A DNA stretch of 64,000 bases from Candidatus Nitrosopumilus salarius BD31 (GTDB taxonomy: Archaea; Thermoproteota; Nitrososphaeria; Nitrososphaerales; Nitrosopumilaceae): the NCBI RefSeq assembly GCF_000242875.2, contig NZ_AEXL02000023.1, positions 1 to 64,000 on the forward strand. The letters run 5' to 3'. Position numbers and translations under genes: made by a program. The notes under the pieces were generated by a model. That model saw only the letters and a program-made list of their open reading frames with translations. It did not search any database and was not told the DNA's origin. This document shows positions 52,108 to 61,216 of the stretch, piece by piece. The number at the start of each line of letters is the position of its first letter. Position 1 is the stretch's first letter.

Positions 52108-53553
52108 ATGAAAAAGGAACTTTCCTTTGCATTAAACTATGCATTAAACAAAGGATTCCAAATTCATCCAGACGCTTTTAAAATTTTAGAAAATGTTGAT
52201 GTAAAAAAATTAGAGAAGATAATTAAGGAAATAGTAAGGGAAAAGACAAAACAGAAATTATTTCAAATTAATCAAGATGATTTGGAGACCTATCTTGGAA
52301 TCAAAGAGGACCTAACACTTCAAAACGAAGTCAAAGTAATATCTGAACCAACCAATAAAATAACATCTGGTGAGGGGGTTAAAGGTTACAATGCTTTGTT
52401 TTCTAGTCGTTTTAACAAACTTAAACGAATTATTTCAGATAGGCCAGAATCAAGGATGTTAAAATCTGCAGCTTCTGTTAAAACTACAAAAACTGATGAT
52501 GATATCTATGTCTGTGGTCTAGTCTCAGTTAGAAACACTGAAAGAAACATCACAAAATTAGTTCTTGAGGACCCTTCAGGCTCATTTGAAGGAATTGTTT
52601 TTGATAATGAATTGCAAAAGACTGCAGGAACTCTTCTAATTGACCAATTTGTTATGGCACGGGTGGGTTTAGCAAATAATTCAGGATATATAATCAAGGA
52701 TTTGATATTGCCAGATATCCCAGAGCAGGCCAAAAATAAGTCAGAGACTGAAGCATATGCGGTTTTTCTTTCTGATTTGCACATAGGAAGCAAATACTTT
52801 ATGGAGGAGGAATTTGCAGAGTTTGTTTCATGGATATCTAGTCCTGATCCAACTGCAAGAAAAATTCGTTTTGTTTTAATCGGTGGAGATGTAGTTGATG
52901 GTGTTGGAATTTATCCAAACCAGAATAAAGAATTGGTCTGTCTAACCATTCAAGAGCAACTAAAAAAGGTTGAAGATTTGATTGACAAAATCCCTAAAAA
53001 TGTAAAGATCATCATAATGCCTGGAAATCACGATCCTGGAAGAAGGGCATTACCACAGCCTGCCATACCCAAAAAATACAACTCAGGTTTGTGGGATAGA
53101 GAAAACGTGATAATGGTCGGAAATCCTGCTGTAGTCTCATTGAATGGTGTTAGAGTAATGATGTTTCATGGACAAAGTATTGACGATATTGTAAAGACTA
53201 CGCCTGGATTAAGTTATGACAAACCAACTAATGTCATGAAACATCTCCTTAGAGCAAGGCATCTTAGTCCAATTTATGGTAGTCAAACACCCATAGCGCC
53301 TGAAATGGAGGATCTTTTGGTAATTGAGGATATTCCAGATATTTTTCATGTTGGGCATGTTCATAGAGCAGAATTAGACATGTACAAAGGAATACTATTG
53401 ATTAATTCAGGTTCATGGCAGAAACAGACTCCTTTTCAAGCTAGTGTTGGAATGACTCCAAATCCAGGAATAGCCATAATGGTGAATTTGAAAACTTTCC
53501 AAGTTTTTCATGAGAATTACAGTTCAAATTTAGATAATATCTTGCAAAGTTAG
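52108..53553 (+). CDS. polB: DNA polymerase D small subunit (DP1)
   Basis: 481 residues. The N-terminal helical and OB-fold parts (DDIYVCGLVSVRNTERN, LEDPSGSFEGIVF) precede the calcineurin-like phosphoesterase domain: SDLHIGSK, IGGDVVDGVG, PGNHDPG, MMFHGQSIDD and GHVHRAELD, the metal ligands of the 3-5 exonuclease. It proofreads for the replicative PolD. The end overlaps the convergent orc1/cdc6 gene by 24 bases, and the large subunit lies 4 kb further on. Confidence 0.96.
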   Translation: MKKELSFALNYALNKGFQIHPDAFKILENVDVKKLEKIIKEIVREKTKQKLFQINQDDLETYLGIKEDLTLQNEVKVISEPTNKITSGEGVKGYNALFSSRFNKLKRIISDRPESRMLKSAASVKTTKTDDDIYVCGLVSVRNTERNITKLVLEDPSGSFEGIVFDNELQKTAGTLLIDQFVMARVGLANNSGYIIKDLILPDIPEQAKNKSETEAYAVFLSDLHIGSKYFMEEEFAEFVSWISSPDPTARKIRFVLIGGDVVDGVGIYPNQNKELVCLTIQEQLKKVEDLIDKIPKNVKIIIMPGNHDPGRRALPQPAIPKKYNSGLWDRENVIMVGNPAVVSLNGVRVMMFHGQSIDDIVKTTPGLSYDKPTNVMKHLLRARHLSPIYGSQTPIAPEMEDLLVIEDIPDIFHVGHVHRAELDMYKGILLINSGSWQKQTPFQASVGMTPNPGIAIMVNLKTFQVFHENYSSNLDNILQS

Positions 53554-54735
53554 TTCATCTTTGAATGATTTTTTTATCATTTCTGATGATATTGTAAGTT
53601 TGTATTTTTTAGTTCTACCATGAATTCCTTGGTGAATTAGTCTTCCAGAGATTAATCCAGATAATTCAATTTCACTTAGCATTTGTGTGATTCTTCTTTG
53701 AGTTAGTTCATCTTTCCCGACAATCTTACAGAGGTTTTTGTATGAAGAGTAAATCTCACCAGTAGAAGAGCCATTTGCCTTCATTATTGCGATAAGTACT
53801 AGTTTTTCATGAAGTGGGAATGATTTGAGAGATTTTTCTTCTTTATTTTCTTCAATTTTTTGGGAGGCTTCTCTAACATGTTCAACAGTGACTTTGTCAG
53901 ATTGTTGTCGCTCAGCAAGTTCGCCTGCTACACGAAGTAAATCAATGGCTCTACGAGCATCACCATGTTCTCCACCTGCAAGAGCCGCAATGAGATTTAG
54001 AGCAGGTTCATTTACAGAGTTTTCAATAAATGATTCGTTGATTCTTTCTTGAAGAATTTTTTTGATTTGTTCAACATCATAATTTGTGAATACAACCTCC
54101 TCTTCCCCTAGGCTGCTAATTACTCTAGGATCTAATTTTTCTTTGAATGTAAGATCATTTGAGATTCCAACTAAGGTTAAAGAACCTCCTTCTTCAAGTC
54201 GCTCGTTTGCCCTAGTAAGTTGGTAGAGAATATCCTTGCCTGTTTTTGCCACTAATTGGGCAAGATAATCGATTTCATCAATTACAAAAATTGCATTAAG
54301 TTTTCCGTTTCTTATTTTAGTTAATAGCCTTTTGAAGACTTCGCTAATTGCAAGGCCAGTGTTTGGTAATTCCTCTTCTCCTAAACCTAATTGTCTGCCT
54401 AGACTAACTAATAATCCGTATAATGTTGTCTCTTCTTTAGAGTTAGTGTAAATCAATTTTATTGGAAAATCTGATTTTTCTACCCTTTCTTGGATTTTGT
54501 CAATAACTCTTCTTACAACTAAGGTTTTACCAGTTCCGGGTTTTCCATAAACAAGAAGATTGGATGGTCTTGATTGTTTTAGAATTGGTAATAATGATTG
54601 TGTGACTTGTTCTAATTCAGATTCTCTATGTAAAATAATCGGTGGTTTGTATGAATAATGAAGACTTTCTCGATTCTTAATAATTGACTTTCCAGATTCA
54701 GCTGCATCAAGCATTCTATCAATAGGGTCAGACAT
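53530..54735 (-). CDS. orc1/cdc6: Orc1/Cdc6 replication initiator
   Basis: About 401 residues from ATG (a GTG two codons earlier is the alternative start). AAA+ domain: Walker A YGKPGTGKTLVVRR near residue 63, Walker B LNAIFVIDEIDYLAQ near 148, sensor 1 LVGISND, and ARRAIDLLRVAGE. The C-terminal winged-helix domain (VGKDELTQRRITQMLSEIE) binds origin DNA. It starts at the edge of a region with ORB-like repeats, so it probably acts there in cis. Convergent with polD small subunit. Confidence 0.96.
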   Translation of the reverse strand: MSDPIDRMLDAAESGKSIIKNRESLHYSYKPPIILHRESELEQVTQSLLPILKQSRPSNLLVYGKPGTGKTLVVRRVIDKIQERVEKSDFPIKLIYTNSKEETTLYGLLVSLGRQLGLGEEELPNTGLAISEVFKRLLTKIRNGKLNAIFVIDEIDYLAQLVAKTGKDILYQLTRANERLEEGGSLTLVGISNDLTFKEKLDPRVISSLGEEEVVFTNYDVEQIKKILQERINESFIENSVNEPALNLIAALAGGEHGDARRAIDLLRVAGELAERQQSDKVTVEHVREASQKIEENKEEKSLKSFPLHEKLVLIAIMKANGSSTGEIYSSYKNLCKIVGKDELTQRRITQMLSEIELSGLISGRLIHQGIHGRTKKYKLTISSEMIKKSFKDELTLQDII

Positions 54736-54880
54736 ACTCACACACCTTCATTTCTTACCAACATTATCATACTCATATCTGAATTAAGAGAGTATAGAAT
54801 AGAATAGTAATTGTAGTTTAGTTTGTAATTAATTATTTTTAGTTAGTTTTAGTTTTTCTAAAAAAAATAATTTAAAAAAA

Positions 54881-54901
54881 GATAGAGTGGAAATAATGGT
54901 G
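54881..54901 (+). promoter_or_regulatory. ORB-like element, plus orientation
   Basis: AGAGTGGAAATAATGGTG (within 54881-54901) matches the TGGAAAT...GG core of the two inverted ORBs but with GTG instead of the G4 run, so it is degenerate. Its inverted orientation relative to the other two is typical of origin architecture. Confidence 0.5.
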
Positions 54902-54978
54902 TGTGGGTTGTTTGAAAAAACCAAATTAACATTTTTGTTAATGAAATGTTAAGAAATCCCCCAAAAAACCCATTTTAA

Positions 54979-54999
54979 CCCCTTTATTTCCATTCCAGG
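54979..54999 (-). promoter_or_regulatory. ORB element 1 (minus orientation)
   Basis: On the minus strand it reads TGGAATGGAAATAAAGGGG. This has the dyad-like TGGAATGGAAA and the terminal G-string typical of ORBs bound by the Orc1/Cdc6 winged helix and AAA+ domain. Confidence 0.65.
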
Positions 55000-55010
55000 C
55001 GTTAAGATGG

Positions 55011-55200
55011 TTGTTAACAATGTGAATATCCTCATCTCTACCCCAATATTTCCACTCCAGGCATGGTAATATCTTGATTTTGGTAATTAATTGAAATTTG
55101 GTTGTTAATAACAAAAAACAGGCTAGGCATGGATTACGCAGTCAATGTTAACAAACTAATTTGTTAACAAACATGATCGGATCCATTGAACTGTTAACAT
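55011..55200. repeat. Cluster of GTTAAC palindromes
   Basis: TTGTTAACAA occurs as a perfect palindrome at 55011-55020 and 55161-55170. ATGTTAACAA (55145-55154) and CTGTTAACAT (55191-55200) are near-copies, so four GTTAAC cores lie in 190 bases just upstream of the next gene. Possible operator or origin-associated site. Confidence 0.6.
55041..55061 (-). promoter_or_regulatory. ORB element 2 (minus orientation)
   Basis: On the minus strand it reads TGGAGTGGAAATATTGGGG, 62 bases from ORB element 1 and in the same orientation. The shared core TGGA-TGGAAAT and the GGGG end are strong, so these two are not chance copies. Confidence 0.65.
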
Positions 55201-55221
55201 CTGGCTTTGTAGATCTCAAAG

Positions 55222-55611
55222 ATGGCAAAAAAACGTATTCGAATAGATATGGAAGATGCAGATGGCGCTCGTTATGATATTAAATTAGAAGGTAATGTGA
55301 CTAGAGAAAAAGTCCTTAAAATATTTGAAATGATGGATTTGATGAATATTGAAGAAGAGATGCCTGAAACAACAAATATGGACTCAATCGGCTCTAAAAT
55401 TTGGTATATTGTAGATAAATTCTTCCCAATGGGCAAATTCACATCCACTAATATTCTAGAAAAATATGAGGATGAGTTTAATGAGCCTGTAAAACTTAGT
55501 ATAATATCCACTTATTTGTCTAGATTTTCTTCAAAAGGTAGGGTGGATAGGACTAGAACAGGTCGTGAATGGACTTATCAAACAATTAAGATTGGCCAAA
55601 AACAACATTAA
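55222..55611 (+). CDS. Small winged-helix-like protein beside the origin
   Basis: 129 residues. The N-terminus is beta-rich and acidic (RIRIDMEDADGARYDIKLEG), and the C-terminal half looks like a winged helix (SKIWYIVDKFFPMGKFTSTNI, then STYLSRFSSKGRVDRTRTGREW). It may bind DNA. Its start lies directly downstream of the palindrome cluster, and it is divergent from orc1/cdc6. I do not recognise the family. Confidence 0.65.
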   Translation: MAKKRIRIDMEDADGARYDIKLEGNVTREKVLKIFEMMDLMNIEEEMPETTNMDSIGSKIWYIVDKFFPMGKFTSTNILEKYEDEFNEPVKLSIISTYLSRFSSKGRVDRTRTGREWTYQTIKIGQKQH

Positions 55612-55615
55612 TCAT

Positions 55616-55777
55616 TCAAGAAATCATAACTTTTCTAACTATTAATCGATCTTTTCCAAGAATCATTTTAACATATTCACCTTTTTGAATATCCATGAAT
55701 TTTCTAAACTGTTTTGGGATTGAAATTGTGCCGGCAGAAGTTATTTTTACCAAAACTTCATTCTCTTGTACTGACAT
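55616..55777 (-). CDS. AbrB/MazE-like small DNA-binding protein
   Basis: 53 residues: an SpoVT-AbrB swapped-hairpin domain, with VLVKITSAGTISIPKQFRKFMDI (start near residue 8) and then GEYVKMILGKDRLIVRKV. These are the two blocks of the domain. The ATG at 55777 is clean. Such proteins bind DNA as dimers and are either regulators or antitoxins; no toxin partner is visible next to it. It ends 4 bases from the convergent 55222-55611 gene. Confidence 0.8.
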   Translation of the reverse strand: MSVQENEVLVKITSAGTISIPKQFRKFMDIQKGEYVKMILGKDRLIVRKVMIS

Positions 55778-55902
55778 ATTATTACTATAAATTAATAATA
55801 TATATAATTTATTAAATTATATAATTAATAAAATAATATAAAATTAGCCTTATTTCCATAAAATATACATCAAACATTACAAAAATAACTTTGAAAATTC
55901 AA

Positions 55903-56644: not shown

Positions 56645-57007
56645 TCACATATTACATGCCTGACGAACGAGCCTGTCAATCACACTGATGACCTCATCCT
56701 CTCTTTCTGGGAATATATCACTCTCATTTATCACACTAATTTGTTCTGAAAGTTTGGATATCACATCTATATCATCAGGTAAAAGTATGCCTAGACCACG
56801 TAAAAGTATGATTGAGTAATACAATCCAATTAATTTCTCTCTAGATTGCCCAACTTGCCTGTAATAGGCACCTTTCGTTATGGAAAATTTAGATTCTAGA
56901 AGATCTTTCTGATTTAAAATAATTTCAATTTGTCGCTCTGTAAACAGTGATTTTTTGATAATTTTACTAATAATATTGTTAAATTTAGATACTTCAATAT
57001 CGTCCAT
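56645..57007 (-). CDS. Small helical protein, unknown function
   Basis: 120 residues from ATG MDDIEVSKFN; an upstream in-frame ATG (57070) would run into the GGGP synthase start region and is less likely. The protein is helical and charged (IISKIIKKSLFTERQIEIIL, then GAYYRQVGQSREKLIGLYYS), resembling helix-turn-helix or DUF folds, but no family is certain. Divergent from GGGP synthase. Confidence 0.6.
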   Translation of the reverse strand: MDDIEVSKFNNIISKIIKKSLFTERQIEIILNQKDLLESKFSITKGAYYRQVGQSREKLIGLYYSIILLRGLGILLPDDIDVISKLSEQISVINESDIFPEREDEVISVIDRLVRQACNM

Positions 57008-57072
57008 AGCTATACAAATCTGTATATCGGTATTCCAATTAAACTTTAAAGAGCCATATACAAATCTCATTT

Positions 57073-57825: not shown

Positions 57826-57838
57826 TAGAATACATACC

Positions 57839-60800
57839 ATGTCTGAAAACGATGCAATTTCTCGTATTAGTGGTATTAAGATGCCTGAATATTATCTTGA
57901 ATATTACTCAAATCTCTCAACTGATACCTACTCAATTTTTGAGCATGCTGCAAAAGCAAAATCAAGTCTTGTAGATTCTTCAGGAATTATAGAGCCAAAA
58001 ATTGCATTTGATTTAGCAGATCGAGTTGCTAAAATGCACGAAATTGATATTGCTGAACCATTAAGAGAGATTCTTAAAATTAATGGAAAAGAACTCTCTG
58101 CATTAATCCTTTCAAAAGAAATTGCGATGGGAAAATATTCTCTTCCAGATGCATCTTTAGAAGAGAAATTAGATCTTGCAGTTCGTGTTGGGCTAGCAAT
58201 TGTAACTGAAGGTGTTACAATTGCACCCTTACAAGGAATTGACAAAGTCAAAATAAAGAAAAATAAAGACGGTACAGAATATCTTTCAGTTTCAATTGCA
58301 GGACCTATGCGTTCCGCAGGAGGTACAGAATCTGCTGTAACAATGCTAATTGCAGATCATGTGAGAAAAATAGCTGGTTTAGGCAAATTTCAGGCAAACT
58401 CCTTTGATGATGAAACAGGTAGATTCGTTGAAGAATTAAGAATCTATGAAAGAGAGGCAAGTAGTTTTCAATTCCATATTTTAGATGAAGATATTGAACA
58501 TGTAATATCAAATCTTCCAGTAGAATTAGATGGTGTAGATACTGATCCTTATGAAGTTGTAAATCATAAGGGTATGACTCGTATCAAGACCGATAGAGTT
58601 AGGGGAGGCGCTTTACGTGTTTTAAATGACGGACTTATTGGACGTTCCAAAAAACTTCTCAAAAGAATTGAATTGTATAATCTAGATGGATGGGAATGGC
58701 TTAATGATCTTAAAGGTGCAGTTCAAACAGGTGAAAATCAAGAGGACGCAGCAGCTAAAAGAATGCGTGAAGTAATCACGGGCAGATCCGTATTATCAAT
58801 GCCTAACAAATTAGGTGGATTTCGATTAAGATATGGACGAGCCTGTAATACTGGCTTTGCAGCAGTTGGTATTCATCCTGTAATTGCTGAAATCCTTGAT
58901 CATACTGTAGCCGTAGGTACACAAATCAAAATAGATATTCCAGGAAAGGGGGCCACTATTGCCTTTGTAGACTCAATAGACACTCCAACTGTCCGTCTGA
59001 AAAACGGCAATGTCGTAAAAATTAGAGATGTAAAACATGGATTAGAAATTAAAAATGAAATTGAAAAAATACTTCATCTAGGCGACATACTAATTTCATT
59101 TGGAGATTTCCTTGAAAATAATGCTCAACTCGTACCTTCCGCATATGTTGAAGAATTTTGGATTGAAGAACTAAAACAAAAAATCCAAAAATATGAACCA
59201 AATGATCAATTTCTAAACCAATTTCTAGCTAGATTACCTACACTTGATGAAGCATTAAAAATCTCACTTGATTTTAAAATTCCACTACACCCACATTACT
59301 TGTATTATTGGGATTGTATTTCATCAGATGAACTTGTTAAACTTTTGGAACCAAATAAAGTCACTACAACATCAATAGAATACCCAATAGAAATCAAAAA
59401 AATTCTTGAGAACTTGGGTACTCCTCATAAAGTTGAAAATGATGTTATAATTCTTGAAAACCAAGAAGCAAAAATTTTCTTTAATTTGTTATTTAGACAA
59501 AAACCAACAATAAGTGATTTATCAGTTCCAAAAATTCTAACCCAAGCATCTGGTATTCAAATTAACAATAAGTTCTCAACTTCAGTTGGGGTTAGAATAG
59601 GAAGACCGGAAAAGGCTGCTGCTAGGCAAATGAAACCTCCAACACATGTGTTGTTTCCAATTAGTGATAAAGGAGGACCAACTAGAGATCTTCTTAAAGC
59701 ATCTAGAAATGAACACTTTTTTGCTGATATTTTCAATAGGCAATGTAATCAATGTAACCAACCATCTATTGGAATCAAATGCTCAATTTGTGGTACAAAA
59801 ACAACAATTACTTACAGATGTACAAATTGTAGAGATGAATTAACTGAGCCTTTTTGCCAAAAATGTAAACGTAAAGCACCAACCCACTCACACAAAGAAT
59901 TTCCACTAAAAACAAGATTACTTTTAGCTCAAGAAAAAATGGGGCTTCGTGCAAAAGAACCATTCAAAGGAGTAAAGGAATTGATCAATCAAGATAGAAT
60001 TGCCGAACCTCTTGAAAAAGGATTGACACGACAAAACTTTGGATTAACTACCTTCAAAGATGGAACTGTTAGATTTGATGCAACAAATTCACCAATAACT
60101 CATTTCAAACCATCATGGATAGGAACTTCAATTGAAAAATTAAAAGAACTTGGATATTTTCATGATATTGACGGAAAACCACTCGAACACACGGATCAAA
60201 TTATTGAGATTAGAATGCAAGATGTGATAATTCCATATGAAAGTGGTAATTATCTAGTCTCTACTTGCAAATACATTGATGTTCTTTTACAGAAATTTTA
60301 TGGCCATTCTCCATTTTATAATGTTCAAAATTCTAAAGATCTAATTGGACACCTAATAATTGGTCTGGCACCACATACTTCTGTTGGAATAGTTGGACGA
60401 ATAATTGGATATACAGAAACACATGTTTGTTTTGCAACACCGAATTGGCATTCTGCAAAAAGAAGAGATGCTGATGGTGATGCTGATTCAATCATGCTTC
60501 TGATGGATAGTCTTCTAAATTTCTCAAGACAATTCCTCTCAGATAGAATTGGTGGATTGATGGATGCACCATTACTTGTACAACCTCTCGTATTACCACA
60601 TGAATCTCAACCACAAGCTCATAATCTCGAAGTTACTAAATCACTCCCATTGGAATTCTTTGAGTCTACTCTTACTCAGATTAAAGCATCAGATATTTCA
60701 TCTGTTGAAATTATTAAAACACGACTTGAAACTGAAAGGCAATTCTATGACTACTTTTTTACTCACTCCACTTCATCATTAACCACATCAAAATCACGTA

Positions 60801-61216
60801 GTGCATATTCCACTCTTGGTTCAATGCTTGACAAATTTGATATGCAAGTCAAAAATGCTGAATTAATCAATGCAGTAGACACTTCGGAGATTGTTTCAAA
60901 TGTTATCTCTACCCATCTTGTTCCAGACATAATGGGAAATCTCAGAGCATATGCTAGACAGAATTTCCGATGTACCGGGTGTGGAAAATCATTTCGTCGA
61001 ATGCCTCTTATCCAAACTTGTCTTTGTGGCCACAAATTAATTCCTACAATTACACGAGGATCTGTTGAAAAATATCTCAAACTTGCAAAAAGACTTGTAG
61101 AGAAATACGATGTCGGTGAATATCAAAAAGGAAGAATTCATGCTTTGTCCGATGAAATTGAATTAGTATTTGGTAAGAGTAAAGGAGATCAATCACTTCT
61201 TACTGATTATGACTAA
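57839..61216 (+). CDS. polC: DNA polymerase D large subunit (DP2)
   Basis: 1125 residues from MSENDAISRI, an ATG 13 bases after the GGGPS stop. DP2 marks: SIAGPMRSAGGTESAVTML near residue 155, the catalytic acidic loop RRDADGDADSIMLLMD near 876, and zinc fingers CNQC/CSIC/CTNC/CQKC near residue 635-680 and CTGCGKSF/CLCG near the C-terminus. It is the catalytic subunit of the replicative PolD, pairing with DP1 at 52108. No intein is seen in the open frame. Confidence 0.96.
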   Translation: MSENDAISRISGIKMPEYYLEYYSNLSTDTYSIFEHAAKAKSSLVDSSGIIEPKIAFDLADRVAKMHEIDIAEPLREILKINGKELSALILSKEIAMGKYSLPDASLEEKLDLAVRVGLAIVTEGVTIAPLQGIDKVKIKKNKDGTEYLSVSIAGPMRSAGGTESAVTMLIADHVRKIAGLGKFQANSFDDETGRFVEELRIYEREASSFQFHILDEDIEHVISNLPVELDGVDTDPYEVVNHKGMTRIKTDRVRGGALRVLNDGLIGRSKKLLKRIELYNLDGWEWLNDLKGAVQTGENQEDAAAKRMREVITGRSVLSMPNKLGGFRLRYGRACNTGFAAVGIHPVIAEILDHTVAVGTQIKIDIPGKGATIAFVDSIDTPTVRLKNGNVVKIRDVKHGLEIKNEIEKILHLGDILISFGDFLENNAQLVPSAYVEEFWIEELKQKIQKYEPNDQFLNQFLARLPTLDEALKISLDFKIPLHPHYLYYWDCISSDELVKLLEPNKVTTTSIEYPIEIKKILENLGTPHKVENDVIILENQEAKIFFNLLFRQKPTISDLSVPKILTQASGIQINNKFSTSVGVRIGRPEKAAARQMKPPTHVLFPISDKGGPTRDLLKASRNEHFFADIFNRQCNQCNQPSIGIKCSICGTKTTITYRCTNCRDELTEPFCQKCKRKAPTHSHKEFPLKTRLLLAQEKMGLRAKEPFKGVKELINQDRIAEPLEKGLTRQNFGLTTFKDGTVRFDATNSPITHFKPSWIGTSIEKLKELGYFHDIDGKPLEHTDQIIEIRMQDVIIPYESGNYLVSTCKYIDVLLQKFYGHSPFYNVQNSKDLIGHLIIGLAPHTSVGIVGRIIGYTETHVCFATPNWHSAKRRDADGDADSIMLLMDSLLNFSRQFLSDRIGGLMDAPLLVQPLVLPHESQPQAHNLEVTKSLPLEFFESTLTQIKASDISSVEIIKTRLETERQFYDYFFTHSTSSLTTSKSRSAYSTLGSMLDKFDMQVKNAELINAVDTSEIVSNVISTHLVPDIMGNLRAYARQNFRCTGCGKSFRRMPLIQTCLCGHKLIPTITRGSVEKYLKLAKRLVEKYDVGEYQKGRIHALSDEIELVFGKSKGDQSLLTDYD

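Follow-up and report, generated by a model that had tools for sequence, protein, structure and literature searches.

The DNA analysed here, hereafter referred to as the window, is a stretch of 64,000 nucleotides from the draft genome of a Nitrosopumilaceae archaeon (1.57 Mb in 171 contigs, 87% complete). The closest matching loci in public data belong to Nitrosopumilus. Within it, a 480-bp intergenic region separates two divergently transcribed genes, one for the initiator protein Orc1/Cdc6, which is present in a single copy in the draft genome, and one for a 129-aa winged-helix protein (Table 1). The orc1/cdc6 gene more likely starts at the ATG at position 54735, upstream of which lies a ribosome-binding-like AAGGTGT. 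The original prediction of a replication origin in this region, made from the DNA letters, had placed its elements next to orc1/cdc6 and between the genes for the two subunits of DNA polymerase D, and both placements proved accurate. The gene order DP1, orc1, origin, winged-helix gene, PcrB, DP2 is widespread among members of the class; in the exceptions either DP1 has moved or a gene is missing from the 20-kb stretch that was examined. Here and below, 'class', 'family' and 'phylum' denote the groupings used in the genome collection searched, in which many of the genomes used for comparison were assembled from metagenomes.

Two further genes were noted in the vicinity. Beside the winged-helix gene lies one for a 53-aa DNA-binding protein of the MazE/AbrB type (Pfam MazE_antitoxin, E 4.8e-08), which is shorter than the ORF length cut. 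The other encodes a 141-aa protein with no Pfam match; among the genomes checked by protein comparison, a counterpart between the origin and PcrB was found in members of the same family only.

Table 1. Genes and sequence elements in and around the intergenic region (window coordinates; offsets are relative to ORB-B)
Feature	Position	Strand	Remarks
PolD small subunit (DP1)	52108-53553		flanks origin region
orc1/cdc6 initiator gene	53530-54741	-	TIGR02928, E 4e-108; best solved relatives 2V1U and 2QBY chain A
Intergenic origin region	54742-55221		480 bp
Conserved AT-rich tract	54786-54881		84% AT; outside the ORB-A/ORB-B interval
ORB-A	54882-54902	+	ATAGAGTGGAAATAATGGTGT; degenerate, inverted relative to ORB-B and ORB-C; GGTG for GGGG
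Interval between inward-facing ORB-A and ORB-B	54903-54977		75 bp, 72% AT
TGTKAA site (TTAACA)	54926-54931	-	offset -53
TGTKAA site	54936-54941	+	offset -42
TGTKAA site	54947-54952	+	offset -31
ORB-B	54978-54998	-	CTGGAATGGAAATAAAGGGGT
TGTTAACA palindrome	55012-55019		offset +34
TGTGAA site	55021-55026	+	offset +43
ORB-C	55040-55060	-	CTGGAGTGGAAATATTGGGGT
TGTTAA site (in TTGTTAATAACAA)	55103-55108	+	offset +125
TGTTAACA palindrome	55146-55153		offset +168
TGTTAACA palindrome	55162-55169		offset +184
TGTTAACA palindrome	55192-55199		offset +214
Winged-helix protein gene	55222-55611	+	129 aa; candidate second origin-binding protein
MazE/AbrB-type protein gene	55619-55777	-	53 aa
Gene for protein with no Pfam match	56645-57070	-	141 aa
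PolD large subunit (DP2)	57830-61216		flanks origin region

ORB elements and AT-rich DNA

Archaeal origins are usually described in terms of Orc1, ORB elements and an AT-rich region. Three ORBs were found in the intergenic region. The two same-orientation elements that had been recognised at the outset, ORB-B and ORB-C, are both present in full, and so is the degenerate inverted copy, ORB-A. When up to three mismatches are allowed, the pattern CTGGANTGGAAANNNNGGGGT has three matches in the 64 kb, all of them in the origin region; shuffled windows contain on average 0.31 matches, and none of 100 shuffles reaches three. A shorter ORB pattern has only two exact matches in the 1.57-Mb draft genome, both at the origin region. 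Ori-Finder 2 (PMC4164010, Table 1) provides a 'common' ORB expression for archaea, which served as an independent motif not derived from 54742–55221. ORB-A, ORB-B and ORB-C are its three best matches in the window (3, 4 and 4 mismatches; the next best has 5). The left half of the elements has diverged from the general motif; the right half and the G-string match.

The succession of ORB-A, interval, ORB-B and, 61–62 bp further, ORB-C is found in nearly all of the 73 aligned family relatives, so that a search for the same ORBs in other thaumarchaeal genomes, which had been proposed as a check, came out in favour of the prediction. Most other families of the class retain the ORB-B/ORB-C pair, with unchanged orientation and a start-to-start distance of about 59–64 bp, and in a few genomes one ORB or none was recognised. 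Besides the window's family, some others have a clear ORB-A. ORBs from outside the family mostly read CTCCAGTGGAAATAAAGGGGT, which is near the published archaeal form; inside it, their left half reads CTGGA or CTAGA. This family-specific change from TCCA to TGGA or TAGA (54978–54998, 55040–55060 and relatives) converts an inverted TCCA-TGGA dyad into a direct TGGA-TGGA repeat, and it suggests altered Orc1 contacts in the family, whose branch in the Orc1 tree is long.

ORB-A and ORB-B are inverted relative to each other and flank moderately AT-rich DNA (Table 1), with a stronger AT tract, reaching 87% AT at 54806–54881, outside the pair. An AT-rich tract beside the elements had thus been correctly reported, but it does not lie between the facing ORBs and is not the richest in the window. 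The tract at 54786–54881 could possibly be the orc1 promoter or an unwinding element. Of all 75-base stretches in the window, the one richest in AT (55772–55846; 72 of 75 positions A or T) is situated upstream of the MazE/AbrB-type gene, outside the origin.

Origin function in the chromosome

The draft genome is too fragmented for skew analysis, which was therefore performed on the complete chromosome of a relative, G039 (1,645,259 bp). In this record orc1 begins at approximately base 143 and the winged-helix gene is at the opposite record end, so the origin spans the ends of the record. The detrended AT, RY and MK skews peak 20–30 kb from the locus and reach their bottom at 751–772 kb; none of 2000 block permutations produced ranges as large as theirs. 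GC skew is weaker (p 0.035). The skew test suggested along with the original prediction is thus answered positively by the AT, RY and MK curves, which turn at the locus, but only weakly by GC skew on its own. Exact ORBs occur just twice in the G039 chromosome, in both cases at the origin locus. The same chromosome also encodes a second, divergent Orc1/Cdc6 (C1:1542751–1543866; 30% identity) far from the origin; no second Orc1/Cdc6 was found in the 87% complete draft genome.

Nitrosopumilus maritimus is listed in reviews as having a single mapped origin (PMC4010727; PMC5333045), which was placed by cdc and ORB repeats (PMC5333045, PMC5797428). Ori-Finder 2 also lists one origin for this species (PMC4164010), and in the genome paper of N. 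cavascurensis the origin was placed by analogy with N. maritimus. The ORB-like elements of the window lie upstream of orc1, as would be expected if they did nothing but autoregulate this gene and replication started elsewhere; however, both the complete relative, whose skew turns at the locus, and the way in which the single origin of N. maritimus was placed speak against this explanation, which we consider highly improbable. Taking together the adjacent orc1, the facing ORBs, the conservation of the layout throughout the class and the skew turn in G039, the region 54742–55221 is almost certainly the chromosomal replication origin, of the oriC1 type, of this archaeon, and the initial reading of the locus is upheld. 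The origin as such is an ordinary one and adds to a kind already familiar, since N. maritimus is known to have a single origin.

The likeness to origins of the oriC1 type, such as Sulfolobus oriC1, and to the mapped origin of N. maritimus, which has one per chromosome, extends to the position of orc1 beside the origin, the G-rich ends of the ORBs, the inverted, facing arrangement of ORBs and the AT-rich DNA nearby. The window's origin departs from the oriC1 type in the left half of its ORBs, which in this family is CTGGA or CTAGA and not CTCCA, in the position of its strongest AT tract outside the facing ORBs, and in an additional array of TGTKAACA repeats.

The TGTKAACA repeats

This second repeat, TGTKAACA (TGTTAACA or TGTGAACA), is fixed in position and was seen by comparing relatives. 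In the origin region, TGTTAACA or its half-site is found about nine times. While the ORB origin layout had been recognised in the original prediction, these repeats and the origin-linked winged-helix gene had been missed. The draft genome contains 36 full TGTTAACA palindromes, four of which are in the origin region. Counted over 52 origins from across the class, GTTAAC reaches 131 occurrences where shuffles give 10.4, and GTGAAC 57 where they give 12.9 (genome G056, in which the joined sequence is non-contiguous, was left out of these and other totals and read separately). In an open count of hexamers, the most repeated ones of several lineages without GTTAAC included, in its place, GTGAAC or TGTGAA; families thus differ in whether K of TGTKAACA is T or G.

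The spacing of the sites is also conserved. Offsets from ORB-B in the window's origin are matched 79 times in 39 origins of other families, compared to 22.7 ± 4.6 matches by chance (18.97 versus 5.18 when averaged by family). Among the best-kept offsets are -53, -42 and -31, which are about one helical turn apart and fall within the ORB-A/ORB-B interval, as well as +34 and +43, between ORB-B and ORB-C; the right-hand sites lack a fixed position across families. On the G039 chromosome, TGTKAA sites are most densely clustered at the origin, with 11 in 300 bp compared to at most six elsewhere. A function of TGTTAACA as a genome-wide regulator site was considered and ruled out: it is not enriched in G039 (45 occurrences versus 37.6 expected), and in the draft genome its 36 occurrences compare with 59 for the reversed control pattern. 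We found no description of TGTTAACA or GTTAAC at thaumarchaeal origins in the open-access literature, and as a second conserved origin element TGTKAACA is apparently new. Judging from sequence comparison, the origin at 54742–55221 very probably has two classes of conserved elements.

Alternatively, the repeats might have no part in replication and serve the winged-helix protein as ordinary operators for repressing its own gene. Three of the palindromes (at 55146, 55162 and 55192) are indeed located within 76 bp upstream of the winged-helix start, and the protein weakly resembles repressors of the BlaI/MecI type. However, in several genomes the winged-helix gene has been relocated, and there the GTTAAC cluster remains at the ORBs, typically with two to six copies, against none, or once a single copy, upstream of the gene. 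G174 and G294, both of family f3, have two winged-helix gene copies each, on contigs other than that of orc1; in both genomes GTTAAC occurs six times upstream of orc1 and is absent upstream of either copy. Corresponding counts upstream of orc1 and of the winged-helix gene are 4 and 0 in G191 and in G300, 2 and 0 in G275, 3 and 1 in G179, 5 and 0 in G056, and 1 and 0 in G071. Family f2 includes four genomes with the gene at a distance of about 3 kb; in these the cluster, except for one stray copy, is within about 450 bp of orc1. The repeats are therefore part of the origin, not just operators of the gene, and autoregulation as their sole role is rejected by the genomes with a relocated gene. 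Since the site offsets are, in addition, fixed relative to ORB-B across families, a purely operator-like function is unlikely.

The winged-helix protein and related systems

Of 300 genomes of the class, 267 contain the winged-helix gene. At all 76 family loci that have orc1 on the contig, the two genes are divergent neighbours. The same holds for about 25 of 29 genomes sampled across the class, 52 of 75 additional genomes from outside the family and about 20 of 48 from other lineages of the phylum; no match was found in 53 of 151 sampled genomes of the phylum, about a third. The predicted structure (mean pLDDT 81, from a shallow alignment) has a beta hairpin and a helix at the N-terminus, followed by a winged helix whose predicted recognition helix (residues 92–104) ranks with the protein's most conserved parts. 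Sequence and fold searches retrieved generic winged helices only, including those of the BlaI/MecI, Fur and ArsR types, and in the open-access literature searched no description of an origin-linked protein of this kind was found.

Residue 94, near the start of the predicted recognition helix, tracks the K of the motif in 55 of 59 genomes, being Thr in most TGTGAA lineages and Ile, Val, Leu, Met or Ala in most TGTTAA lineages. On the Orc1 tree there are only two switches of motif type, each accompanied by a change of residue 94, and six changes of this residue in all; with so few independent switches, a conservative phylogenetic pair test had no power. In a leave-one-family-out scan, residue 94, which had been picked by eye beforehand, ranked first of 118 columns, with other columns, some of them in Orc1, close behind. 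The covariation is suggestive only. It is a serious possibility, albeit a somewhat doubtful one, that the repeats are bound by another protein (a nucleoid protein, a transcription factor, MCM or Orc1) and that the winged-helix gene is linked to the origin for a different reason, such as coupling of its expression to replication. The covariation is, after all, not significant once phylogeny is considered, other columns track the motif nearly as well, and linkage alone is no proof of binding; against this stand the deep linkage of the gene to orc1 and the first rank of a residue in the predicted recognition helix. As to whether the winged-helix protein is the TGTKAACA binder, we regard the balance as even. 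Tentatively, it might be a partner of Orc1 in licensing or firing throughout the class and in several other lineages of the phylum, binding TGTKAACA with a preference for T or G that switched with residue 94.

For comparison, WhiP is the winged-helix initiator of Sulfolobus oriC3. Both are winged-helix proteins associated with an archaeal origin, but WhiP defines its own, whereas the window's protein accompanies an Orc1/ORB origin. With BlaI/MecI (Penicillinase_R) the window's protein shares weak winged-helix similarity, below the Pfam cut-off (17.8 versus 22.6 bits), and palindromic sites near the gene; it differs in its added N-terminal beta-hairpin domain and in that the TGTKAACA sites are tied to the origin and not to the gene.

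A parallel in arrangement may be offered by Sulfolobus, where the ucm motif lies halfway between ORB2 and ORB3 and is required for the origin to be active. Its binding protein, UBP, also contacts MCM, has over 300 chromosomal sites and has been reported only in Desulfurococcales and Sulfolobales (PMC12141716). In both systems a second short motif lies between facing ORBs and there is a small DNA-binding protein, known in Sulfolobus and a candidate here. The motifs are, however, different, and TGTKAACA is present in many copies whereas ucm is present in one; TGTTAACA, in contrast to the sites of UBP, is not enriched outside the origin (the G039 counts given above), and the candidate protein here is a winged helix. 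Profile and fold searches with this protein, in collections of solved structures that may or may not include UBP, gave no match of that name. The window's system may work like ucm/UBP, but the reported distribution of UBP excludes this lineage.

The anatomy of the origin, the conservation of its elements and the skew observed in the relative can be fitted into the following scheme. Orc1/Cdc6 from the adjacent gene would bind ORB-A, ORB-B and ORB-C with fixed polarity. The G-rich ends of ORB-A and ORB-B face each other across 75 bp, into which, by analogy (PMC12141716), the MCM helicase would be loaded, and ORB-C would add a third Orc1. A second factor, for which the 129-aa winged-helix protein is the most likely candidate, would occupy the TGTKAA triplet in the ORB-A/ORB-B interval as well as the two sites between ORB-B and ORB-C. 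We hypothesize that this protein, in a role comparable to that of UBP at ucm in Sulfolobus, acts as a second origin-binding factor that shapes or activates the origin. The motif array and the candidate protein are conserved across the class, to which the ammonia oxidisers belong.
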